From positions 3,536,501-3,600,500 of the forward strand of contig NZ_CP111079.1 in the NCBI RefSeq assembly GCF_026278245.1: a stretch of 64,000 nt of DNA, in the 5' to 3' direction. Of the stretch, positions 1,557-64,000 are shown piece after piece. The position numbers and the translations under genes were made by a program. Each line of letters starts with the position of its first letter. The first letter of the stretch is position 1. The stretch comes from Pontibacter kalidii (GTDB taxonomy: Bacteria; Bacteroidota; Bacteroidia; Cytophagales; Hymenobacteraceae). The notes below the pieces were generated by a model. The model had not been told where the DNA came from, ran no database searches, and was given only the letters and a program-made list of their open reading frames with translations.

Positions 1557-1940
1557 TTTAATCTTGGTTTTAAATAGCCACACCTCCGGCAAAGGGGAAG
1601 TATAAATAAGTTCTAATAGCAAATATAAGAGTCTTTTCGATATAGGCTAGGACTACCTCGACTTTCCAGTCATACTTGTTCAACTGCGGCAGGTACTGCC
1701 CTTGGTTCTTTAAAGCAACCTGTATACCGCAAGAAAGTTATATTTTATACCTTCAAAGATCCTTAGCTAGAATCGGCTGCTAGGTAAGACCCCAATTGTT
1801 TTTTAGTTCCCCTGCCCCTGCTTTACTGCCACTCCCCTCCTGCAACCATCCTTTCACCCATTTTTGCAGCTCTCCACGCAACAGCCAATCTTCACGCCCG
1901 TCTCTCAGAGCCTAGTTTAGCTTACCTGTTTTTCTGATTT
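1557..1940. other. Divergent intergenic region icd / SGNH esterase
   Basis: 384 bp between divergent genes. It holds a minus-strand -7 box (TATATTTG, 1620-1627) for icd without a clear -33 TTG, one AAGTATA word near 1598, and a one-mismatch -7 box (CATTTTTG, 1859-1866) upstream of the esterase. No ORF, hairpin terminator or RNA gene seen. Confidence 0.5.
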
Positions 1941-3305
1941 ATGAGTACAATTTATACTTCGCTTAGCTTGCCCTTTTTACGCGTTCTGCTTATTTTTTGC
2001 CTTGTTTTTATTGTGATGCCTGCCTCCGCGCAGCTTAAAATCATGCCACTGGGCAACTCCATTACACAAGGTGATGGGAAGTATCCGAGCTATAGGTATG
2101 AGCTATGGAAAATGCTGCTCGATGCCGAAGTTGACTTTGAATTCGTAGGATCTCACGATGAGAATAAATACGGGGAGAATCCACCCGTTAAAGGTACCGT
2201 GTATAAGGGTAAAACTTATACGAACCGGAACGAAGGCCACTGGGGTTGGAGGGTAGATGAAATACTAAACGGTAAATCAGGAGAACAAGACAAACGAAGG
2301 TTGAGCCAGTGGCTCAACACGTATACGCCAGATATTGTGCTGATGCACCTCGGCACCAACGACATGTTTCAGAATCAGGAGGTGGAGGAAACGATAGGGG
2401 AACTCCGAGAGGTTGTGCTCCAGATCAGGGCTGACAACCCGGATGTGGTTATCTTCATGGCGCAGCTGATTCCAGCAGATGAAGGTGTGGGCCATGTACA
2501 GGCGAACGAGAATATCAACAACCTTAACGCCCGCATCCCTGCCCTTGCAGAGGAACTCACCACACTTCGATCCCCGGTTATACTTGTAGACCAGAACACC
2601 GGCTTTGATGCAACTTGGAACCCAAACTCAGTGGAAGGCCAGGGAGATACCCATGATGGCCTGCACCCTAACTTCATCGGTGAGCGGAAAATGGCCCAGC
2701 GCTGGTACGAGGCCATCATGAACGAGGTGATCATCCCGCTCCCCGTGGAACTCTCCGCATTTACTGCGCGCAGCAACCTGCGAGGCGGTGTACTGCTGGA
2801 GTGGCAAACAGCCTCTGAAACCGATAATGCCTACTTTGAGGTGCAGCGCTCGCAGAACGGGAAGGAGTTTCTGGAAATAGCCAGGGTGGCGGGCGCAGGC
2901 ACTACCGTGGTGGCGCAGCACTACACTTTCACCGATTCTGCGGCGATGCCGGGAACCGTATACTACAGGCTAAGGCAGGTGGATACCGATGGCACGAGCA
3001 GCCTCTCGAAGGTGGTGCAGGTACACGTAAACGAGCGGCAAGAGCAGCTACAGGTGTTCCCAACCAGCAGCCGGGGGCAAAACGTGTCGGTGCACCTGCA
3101 GCATAACCATCCCGCTGAGGTGGCCGAGGTACATGTTTATACAAAGGAAGGAAAACTGGTGCACAAGCTGGAAAACCTGGCGGGCAACAACGGTACTTTT
3201 AGCACCAAAATCCTGACGGAGCAACTGTATGGGGCAGGCATTTACCTGGTGCGCGTAACGGCAGGCAATAAAGTATACTTCTCTAAATTTGTGCTGGAAA
3301 GGTAA
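1941..3305 (+). CDS. Secreted SGNH/GDSL esterase with type IX secretion C-terminal domain
   Basis: A 454-residue extracellular hydrolase, probably a carbohydrate or lipid esterase. Residues 1-31 form a signal peptide ending ASA-Q. The SGNH fold follows: block I GNSITQG (about residue 37), block III GTND (about 137), block V DGLHPN (about 238), supplying the Ser, Gly/Asn and Asp-His catalytic elements. After about residue 265 comes an Fn3-like module (starting LPVELSAFTA), then a C-terminal domain ending GIYLVRVTAGNKVYFSKFVL, typical of type A T9SS sorting signals that carry cargo across the outer membrane. Substrate cannot be read from sequence. Its stop codon abuts that of the convergent phosphoribosyltransferase gene. 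Confidence 0.88.
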   Translation: MSTIYTSLSLPFLRVLLIFCLVFIVMPASAQLKIMPLGNSITQGDGKYPSYRYELWKMLLDAEVDFEFVGSHDENKYGENPPVKGTVYKGKTYTNRNEGHWGWRVDEILNGKSGEQDKRRLSQWLNTYTPDIVLMHLGTNDMFQNQEVEETIGELREVVLQIRADNPDVVIFMAQLIPADEGVGHVQANENINNLNARIPALAEELTTLRSPVILVDQNTGFDATWNPNSVEGQGDTHDGLHPNFIGERKMAQRWYEAIMNEVIIPLPVELSAFTARSNLRGGVLLEWQTASETDNAYFEVQRSQNGKEFLEIARVAGAGTTVVAQHYTFTDSAAMPGTVYYRLRQVDTDGTSSLSKVVQVHVNERQEQLQVFPTSSRGQNVSVHLQHNHPAEVAEVHVYTKEGKLVHKLENLAGNNGTFSTKILTEQLYGAGIYLVRVTAGNKVYFSKFVLER

Positions 3306-3932
3306 TTAATCCTCATCCTGCTCCCGCAGCAGCTGCATCACCTCTTCATCGGAGGTTTGGTAGAACTCTTCGTAAAACTGGCCAACGGCCTGGAAGAATG
3401 GCGGCGTGAGCAGGCACACAAACTCATCCACTAGTCCTGAGAAACGCTTTGCGGCCTCGGGCGGCGCCACCGGCACGGCCACCACCACACGTTGGGGTTG
3501 CTCTTTCTGCACCAGCTTTACCGTAGCTTCCAGGGTTTTGCCGGTGGCAATGCCATCATCCACAATAATCACTATGCGGTCTTTGAAGGGGATGTGCCGG
3601 CGATTGCCCATAAACAGGCTGTACTTCTGCTGTATACTTTCCCGGATGCGTTGCACCTGCGCCTCGATATACTCCTCCGGTACGTCCGGGCGGTGGTCGT
3701 AGATGACGCTATCCATACTCACGGCACCGATGGCGAACTCCGGGTTCAGGGGGTGGCCTATTTTTTTGGAAACCGTTACCTCCAGGGGCATGCCCAGTTC
3801 TCTGGCAATGGGCGCCGCCACCGGCACGCCTCCCCTTGGGATAGCCAGCACCACGCCCTGCTGGCCTTTATACTTTTGCAGCCGCTGGGCCAGCTGCGCC
3901 GCCGCCGTCTCCCTGTTTCGGATCATGTCCAT
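3306..3932 (-). CDS. Phosphoribosyltransferase family protein (COG1926-like)
   Basis: A 208-residue type I phosphoribosyltransferase fold. The PRPP-binding loop is plain: IVIIVDDGIATGKT, and an N-terminal AIPRGGVPVAAPIA segment is typical of this subfamily. The acceptor substrate is unknown for the family. The alpha/beta hydrolase gene upstream on the same strand (4113-4796) belongs to a family sometimes fused to this one, so the pair probably acts together. The two genes are separated by a long palindromic spacer. A second Met at codon 3 is an equally possible start. Confidence 0.85.
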   Translation of the reverse strand: MDMIRNRETAAAQLAQRLQKYKGQQGVVLAIPRGGVPVAAPIARELGMPLEVTVSKKIGHPLNPEFAIGAVSMDSVIYDHRPDVPEEYIEAQVQRIRESIQQKYSLFMGNRRHIPFKDRIVIIVDDGIATGKTLEATVKLVQKEQPQRVVVAVPVAPPEAAKRFSGLVDEFVCLLTPPFFQAVGQFYEEFYQTSDEEVMQLLREQDED

Positions 3933-3952
3933 GGTTATTCAGTTTTGAATGT

Positions 3953-4106
3953 GTGAATGAGTGAATGAGTGGATGGTTATTAGTTGTTGGTTATTGGTAG
4001 CCCGTAGTTAAGAGTAGATAGTGTCTTTTGGACGGGATAACCAACGCCTCCATACTTACCACTGCCAATGGTCAGATTCACTCATCCACTCATTCGCTCA
4101 TTCACC
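3953..4106. repeat. Long inverted repeat built of iterated GAATGAGT words
   Basis: Left arm 3953-3977 repeats the word GAATGAGT/GGATG; right arm 4077-4106 is its imperfect reverse complement (ACTCATCC, ACTCATTC, GCTCATTC). About 100 bp separate them. Lies between the hydrolase and phosphoribosyltransferase genes and could form a long-stem hairpin in a shared transcript. Confidence 0.75.
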
Positions 4107-62687: not shown

Positions 62688-63296
62688 ATGAGAAAACTTG
62701 TTTTAACCTTGATAACCGTGCTGGCTATTAGCATTACAGCCCAGGCACAGTTATTTCAGGCTGGCGTAAAGGCCGGTATCAGCTCCTCGAAGGTGCGCCT
62801 GAGCGATGTACAGAACGACCCGCAGCAGTATGCCTCTGCCGATAATATTACCGGTTACCACGCTGGTGCCTTTGCCCGCCTGCAATTGCTGGGGCTGCTG
62901 TTTCAGCCGGAAGCCATACTTGCTACCTCAGGAGGAAACGTAGAGGTGAAAGACGATCCCAACAGCACCATGGTGCGCGTGGAGAAGTTTAAGTTCGACC
63001 GCCTGGACGTGCCGCTGCTGGTAGGCTTTAACTTTTTGCGGGTGGCACGGGTACAAGCTGGCCCGGTAGCCTCCATGCTGCTGACCGCCAAGCAGGAGGG
63101 CCGCACCATTAAAGACTATTACGACAACTCCGACTGGGGTTTCCAGGCAGGCCTAGGCGTCGACATTGGGGCTTTAACTCTGGATGCACGCTACGAACGC
63201 ATTAACCGCGACTTCACTAACACCAGCCTGCAAAGTGATGGCAAAGTGAGGAACGAGCAGTTTCTGGTAAGCCTGGGCCTGAAGCTAATAAAGTAG
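62688..63296 (+). CDS. PorT-like outer-membrane beta-barrel protein
   Basis: A 202-residue exported barrel. Start at 62688 (MRKLVLTLITV) gives a signal peptide ending QAQ-L; the frame continues 11 codons upstream without merit. Strands: FQAGVKAGISSSKVRLS, YHAGAFARLQLLGLLFQPEA, FKFDRLDVPLLVGFNFLR, DWGFQAGLGVDIGALTLDAR and the terminal QFLVSLGLKLIK. Related in design to the barrel at 52526. No -7 box close to its ATG; expression may depend on read-through from the promoter at 62471-62500. Confidence 0.8.
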   Translation: MRKLVLTLITVLAISITAQAQLFQAGVKAGISSSKVRLSDVQNDPQQYASADNITGYHAGAFARLQLLGLLFQPEAILATSGGNVEVKDDPNSTMVRVEKFKFDRLDVPLLVGFNFLRVARVQAGPVASMLLTAKQEGRTIKDYYDNSDWGFQAGLGVDIGALTLDARYERINRDFTNTSLQSDGKVRNEQFLVSLGLKLIK

Positions 63297-63311
63297 CAAA
63301 GGCCGTCTATT

Positions 63312-63360
63312 AAATCAAGAAAGCCGCAGGAGCATCAGTTCCTGCGGCTTTCTTGTGATT
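63312..63360. terminator. Bidirectional terminator
   Basis: Long arms AAGAAAGCCGCAGGA / TCCTGCGGCTTTCTT; convergent genes on both sides. Confidence 0.9.
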
Positions 63361-63412
63361 TATACTTTAGATAAAGTCTTTTATCCTTTATCAAATTGTC
63401 CTTTGTCCAAGA

Positions 63413-64000
63413 CTATGGCATGTACAGGTTCGCGCCAGGGCCTATCGGCAGGTCCAGCAGAATCCAGATGATGAACATTACAATCCAGCCGATCAGGAAG
63501 ACGATAGAGTATGGCAGCATGGTAGAGATAACCGTACCGATACCGGCTTTCTTATCATAACGCTGTATGAAGGCCACAATCAGGGCGAAGTAGGACATCA
63601 TCGGGGAGATAATGTTCGTAACGCTGTCGCCGATGCGGTAAGCCACCTGCGTAAACTCCGGCGTATAGCCCAGCAGCATAAACATCGGGATGAACACCGG
63701 TGCCATAATGGCCCATTTGGCAGAGGCCGAGCCCATTACCATGTTAATGGAGGCCGCCACAAGTATAAACATGATCATCAGCGGTATACCGCTCAGGCCC
63801 AGCGTTTTCAGGGTATCAGCCCCGTTAATGGCCAGTATAAGCCCCAGGTTGGTCCAGTTAAAGTAAGCCACAAACTGCGCCGCGAAGAACACCAGCACAA
63901 TATAAGAGCCCAGCGTTTCCATGGATTTGGACATGCCACGCATCACGTCGCTGTCGTTCTTGATGGTTTGGGCACCGATGCCGTATGCAATGCCTGCCAC
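63413..64000 (-). CDS. AbgT family transporter (3' part)
   Basis: The C-terminal 195 residues of an inner-membrane transporter of the AbgT family (p-aminobenzoyl-glutamate import or sulfonamide/antimetabolite efflux). Diagnostic stretch [20 protein letters not shown] followed by [20 protein letters not shown] and [16 protein letters not shown]. The gene is open at the window's right edge; family length is about 500, so roughly 300 residues lie outside. C terminus ends GPGANLYMP. Confidence 0.9.

Follow-up and report, generated by a model that had tools for sequence, protein, structure and literature searches.

Why should one short non-palindromic word be scattered over a bacterial chromosome in thousands of copies, and what could read it? 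The question arises from a 64,000-nucleotide stretch of Pontibacter kalidii (assembly GCF_026278245.1, contig NZ_CP111079.1, positions 3,536,501 to 3,600,500; hereafter the window, meaning the whole stretch analysed), in which the heptamer AAGTATA (TATACTT on the other strand) occurs 140 times, 72 times in the first form and 68 in the second, against 5.5 occurrences expected by composition (25.7-fold). A further 58 sites are of the AAGTATG type (21 AAGTATG and 37 CATACTT; 6.3 expected, 9.3-fold). An earlier sequence-only reading of the window had estimated about 140 sites, roughly even between the strands, where about 6 were expected, hence an approximately 20-fold excess, as well as about 60 sites of the second type; the over-representation is confirmed and is larger than first claimed. 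The neighbouring words that this reading had called scarce are indeed so: counted on both strands, TATACTC/GAGTATA occurs 12 times, TATACTG/CAGTATA 8 times and GATACTT/AAGTATC 5 times, and AATACTT/AAGTATT only twice. Among window 7-mers with more than 20 occurrences, AAGTATA has the highest enrichment.

The excess extends beyond the window, which lies in a contig of 4.98 Mb; the assembly also has a second contig of 73.8 kb. Neither of the outcomes that the sequence-only reading had named as fatal to it, enrichment limited to the window or an unremarkable genome-wide count, was observed. The whole assembly (G000) contains 4,451 + 4,410 = 8,861 copies, compared with 170 + 186 = 356 copies of the same word read backwards, hereafter the reversed control. 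For finer counts we used a 664 kb sample of this genome, comprising the window and 600 kb more (20 chromosome samples of 20 kb each and 264 kb around the window), with genes called as longest open reading frames (ORFs). Markov models of orders 1, 2, 3 and 4 expect 47, 85, 230 and 616 sites in this sample, where 1,291 are observed. An order-5 background, which the sequence-only reading had proposed as the check, expects 122.7 sites in the window and is uninformative by itself, since the word itself raises the counts of the 6-mers that it contains; the lower orders and codon shuffling reveal the excess. In 30 synonymous shuffles of 451 ORFs (536 kb) the word appeared 70.5 ± 9.2 times, compared with 683 observed; together with the use of all six reading frames, this led us to reject codon usage or protein composition as the cause. 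Both word-rich and word-poor Pontibacter samples also show raised counts of words of the CTGCTG/CAGCAGG/CCTGCAGG type (approximately 5-17 fold relative to composition), an excess that is probably codon-driven.

Relatives were surveyed in two steps, first 59 genomes and then 204 genomes of the family, 50 from Pontibacter and 154 from five other genera. Judged by nuoN, the nearest named genomes are P. flavimaris (96%) and P. litorisediminis (93%), and P. anaerobius, P. mangrovi, P. mucosus, P. chinhatensis and an uncultured Pontibacter are also near. Strong enrichment of AAGTATA is restricted to Pontibacter: the ratio to the reversed control is 8.8 to 38.5 in 23 of the 50 genomes and 0.8 to 4.5 in the other 27, and none of the 154 genomes of the other five genera is strongly enriched (highest ratio approximately 2.5). 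The AAGTATA-poor Pontibacter species are rich in other words, as seen in nuo regions of about 20 kb and then in genome-wide counts. AGGTATA is abundant in 12 genomes (5,748 to 9,303 copies) and AACTATA in eight, five of which have 11,674 to 13,168 copies, the others being G026 (8,118), G032 (6,094) and G217 (3,531). Four of these eight, G211, G032, G026 and G217, are AAGTATA-rich as well. With our own cut-offs per Mb (700 for AAGTATA, 1,000 for AGGTATA and 700 for AACTATA), 39 of the 50 genomes have at least one strong word. Genome-wide counts found none of the three words strong in G002, G214, G033, G023, G210, G024, G025 and G027, and G007 shows a weak AAGTATA excess (4.0x).

Two further dialects are tentative. 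In G215 (54% GC, 100 kb sampled, L033 and L102-L105) we observed words of the YYATATATR type, TATATAT being enriched 14-fold, and 31-fold in the nuo locus, so that ATATATR may represent a fourth dialect. In G036 GGTATR occurs 158 times in 40 kb, compared with 62 for its reverse (3.95 per kb), the density in eight samples from other genomes outside the AGGTATA clade being 1.06 to 1.80 per kb. The words share the scaffold xx-TAT-R, with T rare at the next place (4-12%), which can be written as N-XX-TAT-R-V, where XX is AG, GG, AC or perhaps TA, mostly preceded by A. The fuller forms are aAAGTATAaa, cAGGTATAgc and cAACTATAg. Outside the genus, a 21 kb locus of Rufibacter ruber (L009) contains AAAACAG 29 times (12-fold), 19 of them intergenic, in a partly conserved TTTCnGAAAACAGsC-like context; considered as a candidate analogue, it is perhaps another repeat family.

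The dialects group by clade. In a tree of up to nine nuo-region proteins from 48 Pontibacter genomes (G025 and G027 absent) and two outgroups, the AGGTATA clade branches first, the AACTATA clade grades into AAGTATA via G211, G032 and G026, and AAGTATA occupies most of the remaining genomes, with word-poor lineages in between. G026 and G210 are represented by four of the nine proteins and the outgroups by eight, the placement of G026 being the least certain. In one 20 kb locus from each of the four mixed genomes the two words are finely interspersed (runs test, p from 0.14 to 0.85), and segmental mixing of chromosomes was rejected as their origin. Conversion of an old word to a new one in place was likewise rejected, being rare in coding alignments; for example, 2 of the 17 AAGTATA sites of G032 correspond to AACTATA in G030. 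Although the numbers are small, old words persist in the mixed genomes and new words mostly arise at other places.

The word is scarce on the sampled second contigs. That of G000, counted whole, has 20 copies of AAGTATA, where 11.3 are expected by composition (0.27 per kb compared with 1.75 genome-wide), and carries conjugation genes (TraG, TraM, relaxase and ArdC domains). In G001 we found 15 copies in 80 of 116 kb (0.19 compared with 1.27 per kb), and in G020, 35 copies in 80 of 204 kb (0.44 compared with 0.82 per kb). Twenty of the latter fall in one 20 kb stretch (L159, positions 20001-40000), the only one of the four sampled there with a chromosome-like density; it is perhaps a transferred chromosomal segment. 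A gap in the word is not by itself a sign of foreign DNA. When the seven longest stretches lacking AAGTATA in the G000 sample were inspected, a SusC/SusD pair lay in one and an integrase together with a transposase in another, while the remaining ones contain nuo genes, ATP synthase, a TonB receptor, a nitrous-oxide-reductase-like gene and, in a single instance, N. In the last of these (L125:16043-20000) 2,500 N lower the GC count of the word-free end, and the word count of L125 is probably too low.

In aligned DNA of G000 and G014, 146 of the 206 G000 sites are shared (146 of 241 when counted from G014). Of the 60 sites that G014 does not share, 31 are a single substitution away, these changes being spread across all seven positions, and 12 involve gaps; since the flanks also have no long consensus, insertion of a fixed micro-element was rejected. 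In the species pair G013/G208, approximately 94% identical over 134.6 kb of aligned DNA (coding regions differ by 5.9% and intergenic ones by 8.2%), 316 of 377 coding words (84%) and 220 of 268 intergenic words (82%) are identical, shared ones being counted twice, compared with 69% and 70% of anagram controls (Fisher p approximately 2e-5 and 0.005, with counts halved for the doubly counted pairs). AAGTATG is kept in coding DNA (144 of 172) and barely in intergenic DNA (28 of 43). At gap-free, well-aligned sites of this one pair, with 202 words serving as controls, the per-site turnover is 0.46 of control in coding and 0.50 in intergenic DNA (95% intervals 0.33-0.60 and 0.27-0.76), and gain per one-off neighbour is 5.7 and 9.4 times that of control, respectively; the loss and gain ratios derive from one count and are not independent. 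Because turnover is about half that of the controls and gains are 6-9 times faster, the words appear to be created, maintained and spread by a sequence-specific process, which seems to act in trans, its specificity shifting between clades. By our estimate, drive or uneven selection fits these values better than mutational bias, which predicts approximately 1, or uniform weak selection. Short insertions and deletions may still be a source of words in the intergenic DNA of this pair.

As the sequence-only reading had stated, the words lie both in spacers and in coding sequence. In the 664 kb sample there are 792 coding sites (1.39 per kb) and 499 intergenic ones (5.36 per kb), that is, the word is approximately four times denser between genes, and the same contrast was observed in samples of G014, G017 and G030. 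Of 768 sites wholly inside one ORF, 362 are sense and 406 antisense. The intergenic density depends on gene arrangement, being 7.5 per kb in convergent, 5.2 in codirectional and 3.8 in divergent spacers, and peaks at 9.4 per kb within 30 bp past the 3' end of genes, compared with 4.5 per kb on the start side. The sites are over-dispersed, and neighbours within approximately 250 bp mostly have the same orientation in AAGTATA and AACTATA samples; the AGGTATA sample (G017), with small numbers, shows no such tendency.

We tentatively suggest that the heptamer is a self word linked to DNA uptake or recombination and working like DNA uptake sequences (DUS), an assignment made by analogy. The heptamer would be the local dialect of a genus-specific word read as "self" by a sequence-specific Pontibacter protein, acting where DNA is taken up or exchanged via homologous recombination. 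Fragments with the current word would be preferentially taken up or rescued, so that new words arising by mutation would spread and lost ones would be replaced. If the specificity of the reader drifts, a new word would build up, for the most part at fresh positions, as the old one erodes, and we propose that such drift gave rise to both the dialects and the mixed genomes. It is from these patterns that we infer a single reader and its tie to DNA uptake or recombination. The uptake route would be pilus-independent, as known from Riemerella, a member of Bacteroidota for which PMC8459023 describes pilus-free natural transformation and a transformation protein containing a DUF5689 domain. Because pilus-free transformation exists in this phylum, a self word of this kind remains the best single mechanism, although it is far from assured.

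The sequence-only reading had likened the word to uptake words and to HIP1 of cyanobacteria. Uptake words fit best, given the presence on both strands and in coding and intergenic DNA, the dialects, the mixed genomes and the scarcity on second contigs. The DUS of Neisseriaceae, as PMC3630211 describes them, are likewise present in thousands of copies inside and between genes, with clade-specific dialects that share a core and genomes that have two dialects. This likeness is one of sequence pattern, and uptake itself is proposed. DUS scarcity in mobile elements, and its use for spotting integrative elements, is suggested by PMC7371117. The differences are that the Pontibacter word is 7-9 bp long, compared with 10-12 for DUS, that no pilus ATPase and hence no ComP-type receptor route was found, and that runs in one orientation replace the inverted terminator pairs of Neisseria. 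The uptake signal sequences of Pasteurellaceae are also abundant self words with dialects, but the receptor predicted for them is a type IV minor pilin (PMC12616744).

Several observations weigh against a self word for uptake or recombination. The ATPase of type IV pili and type II secretion systems (T2SSE, PF00437) was detected in none of the 50 genomes at E <= 1e-10 or the family cut-off, pilins not being searched (13 of 14 controls were positive, and 31 out of at most 45 first-look candidates were scored in most genomes); known pilus-based uptake machinery thus appears absent. ComEC (PF03772), the family of the inner-membrane DNA channel, is present in all 50 genomes, but it does not track the word, being found in word-poor species and having an internal stop in the word-rich G009 and G021. 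Of these two, G021 has a word density below that of its nearest relatives and G009 is among the highest of its clade. DUF5689 occurs in 22 of the 50 genomes in a patchy manner that does not follow the word, and was rejected as the surface reader. Runs in one orientation are in excess in the 664 kb sample, 89% of neighbours at 8-15 bp being co-oriented, while inverted pairs no more than 60 bp apart are not (31 +- pairs, 25 overlapping dyads excluded, and 33 -+ pairs, compared with 197 in the same orientation). Since a search for the known pilus route came back empty and there is no excess of inverted pairs, the word cannot be classed as a DUS. The dialect boundaries are not absolute, because AGGTATA is raised to 3 to 7 times the reversed control in many genomes outside its clade (in G000, 1,615 compared with 332). 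The second contigs may be word-poor only through recency. In the intergenic DNA of G013/G208, 22 of 48 differences involve gaps, so that insertions and deletions also make or break words, and turnover is, by our estimate, above the expectation of uniform weak selection.

Among the alternatives, a Chi-like role survives best, and we consider it rather unlikely. A helicase-nuclease of the RecBCD/AddAB type would read the word on one strand and switch from degradation to repair, self DNA would be marked and protected, and the dialects would follow the enzyme. Chi sites are short, non-palindromic, species-specific and enriched in the backbone, and they show strand polarity with replication. The length of 7-9 bp, the absence of palindromy, the species specificity and the scarcity on sampled second contigs agree with this; runs in one orientation suit a directional reader, and no pilus is needed. 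In all 50 genomes there is a protein, 967-1018 aa long and with PDDEXK_1 as its C-terminal domain, that we take for AddB by domain and length; a search of PDB sequences with it gave no useful relative, and AddA was not looked for. However, this protein is retained in the word-poor species, and strand counts in the 20 samples of 20 kb and the 264 kb around the window do not track the switch of GC skew, so that replication polarity is absent. No residue follows the dialect in 25 aligned AddB-like sequences from the 50 genomes, one of them (G017) from the AGGTATA clade: at 595 columns invariant in 17 AAGTATA genomes G017 and G036 share one change, which G215 shares too, and none of the 33 AACTATA-clade columns reverts in both G032 and G026, four reverting in G026 alone.

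That an abundant nucleoid or chromosome-organising protein binds the word, selection for occupancy keeping it, is in our opinion unlikely. The presence on both strands and in intergenic and coding DNA, as well as the higher density behind genes than on their start side, would suit such a protein, but the very high gain rate and the whole-word switches between sister clades are hard to square with thousands of functional sites, and 11 of the 50 genomes have no strong form of the three words.

Still less probable is a HIP1-like origin, in which the word would be the target of an orphan DNA methyltransferase and would be created and kept through methyl-directed mismatch repair or something akin to it (Elhai's model). 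The scale, approximately one site per kb, and the replacement of the word by another in some lineages resemble HIP1 and the alternate HIPs as portrayed in PMC4390886, and loss is lowered and gain raised together. HIP1 is, however, palindromic, GC-rich and tied to a methyltransferase, while AAGTATA, AGGTATA and AACTATA are non-palindromic and AT-rich. A methylation target had been one of the functions listed in the sequence-only reading; the methyltransferase comparison, which covered PF01555 and PF07669 (HsdM-type PF02384 and C5 families were not searched), found the two families missing or sporadic in word-bearing genomes. N6_N4_Mtase (PF01555) has no match in 13 of the 39 word-bearing genomes, and the Eco57I type (PF07669) gives strong hits (E < 1e-20) in 24 of the 50 genomes and no hit of any strength in the word-bearing G021. 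Finally, context-dependent mutational bias without recognition, likewise listed there, is very improbable: the high gain at one-off neighbours and the use of all frames and both strands would agree with it, but sister clades have different words, some apart by transversions, turnover is about half of control, and the second contigs are word-poor.

The word is not carried by hairpins or repetitive extragenic palindromes (REPs). With L125 omitted from this comparison for its 2,500 bases read as N, and kept in the other counts, 38 of 502 intergenic sites lie in hairpins (0.076), compared with 685 of 12,000 random positions (0.057), and the coding values are 0.024 and 0.018; sites are only a little commoner in hairpins than random positions, and this candidate was rejected. 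Individual examples pointed out earlier were nevertheless found in the window (Table 1), namely the word in a terminator loop (then placed at 37628) and in a REP centre (12544), and four words in tandem in a composite repeat. Overlapping palindromic dyads are a minority, 25 being present in the 664 kb sample. The thinning noted in nuoL and nuoM holds for G000 and not as a rule, for across 20 AAGTATA-rich genomes the site density is 1.58 per kb in the nuoM ORF and 0.68 per kb in the C-terminal ORF of nuoL. The nuoL-like gene of the window is split into overlapping ORFs in different frames (39331-40143 and 40056-41309), by a frameshift or an assembly error.

Table 1. Word sites and associated features in the window (positions count from its first nucleotide).
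Feature	Position	Strand	Remark
140 AAGTATA/TATACTT and 58 AAGTATG/CATACTT sites	1598..63767	both	AAGTATA type: first site 1598-1604, last 63761-63767
Palindromic dyad AAGTATACTT from two overlapping sites	3271..3280	both	word positions
Word in loop of REP-like hairpin adjoining the Y1_Tnp gene	12543..12549	+	direct reading
Y1_Tnp gene (like REP-associated tyrosine transposases, RAYT-like)	12619-13167		between two word-bearing REP-like hairpins (12543 and 13270)
Second REP-like hairpin with word in loop	13270-13276		near the same Y1_Tnp gene; direct reading
Three AAGTATA in one orientation (16641, 16653, 16661)	16641..16667	+	word positions
Word in loop of terminator-like hairpin behind nuo genes	37622..37628	-	direct reading
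nuo stretch without AAGTATA, two AAGTATG only	38756..44022		particular to G000, no conserved gap
Three TATACTT in one orientation (54751, 54775, 54782)	54751..54788	-	word positions
Four AAGTATA in one orientation (59864, 59873, 59879, 59888)	59864..59894	+	word positions

In our view Pontibacter probably has its own system of chromosome-marking words, in three or more dialects (perhaps five); the reader would be a protein other than a pilus receptor or a methyltransferase of the two families tested, and a dialect switch would be under way in G211, G032 and G026, its direction from AACTATA to AAGTATA being taken from the tree. In the open-licence literature, preprints not included and without a specific search for Pontibacter competence, we found neither these words nor any uptake sequences in Bacteroidota described. 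Two proteobacterial families that take up DNA by means of type IV pili are well known for genome-wide self words with dialects; if a self word linked to uptake or recombination is the true explanation, DNA self-recognition would have arisen independently in a Bacteroidota genus with no detectable pilus ATPase. The words might help to flag recently acquired DNA, though word-free gaps occur in core genes too. Co-variation across the 50 genomes offers a way to find the reader, and the spread, upkeep and replacement of such words can be tested by comparing the clades, the four mixed genomes and the word-poor lineages.

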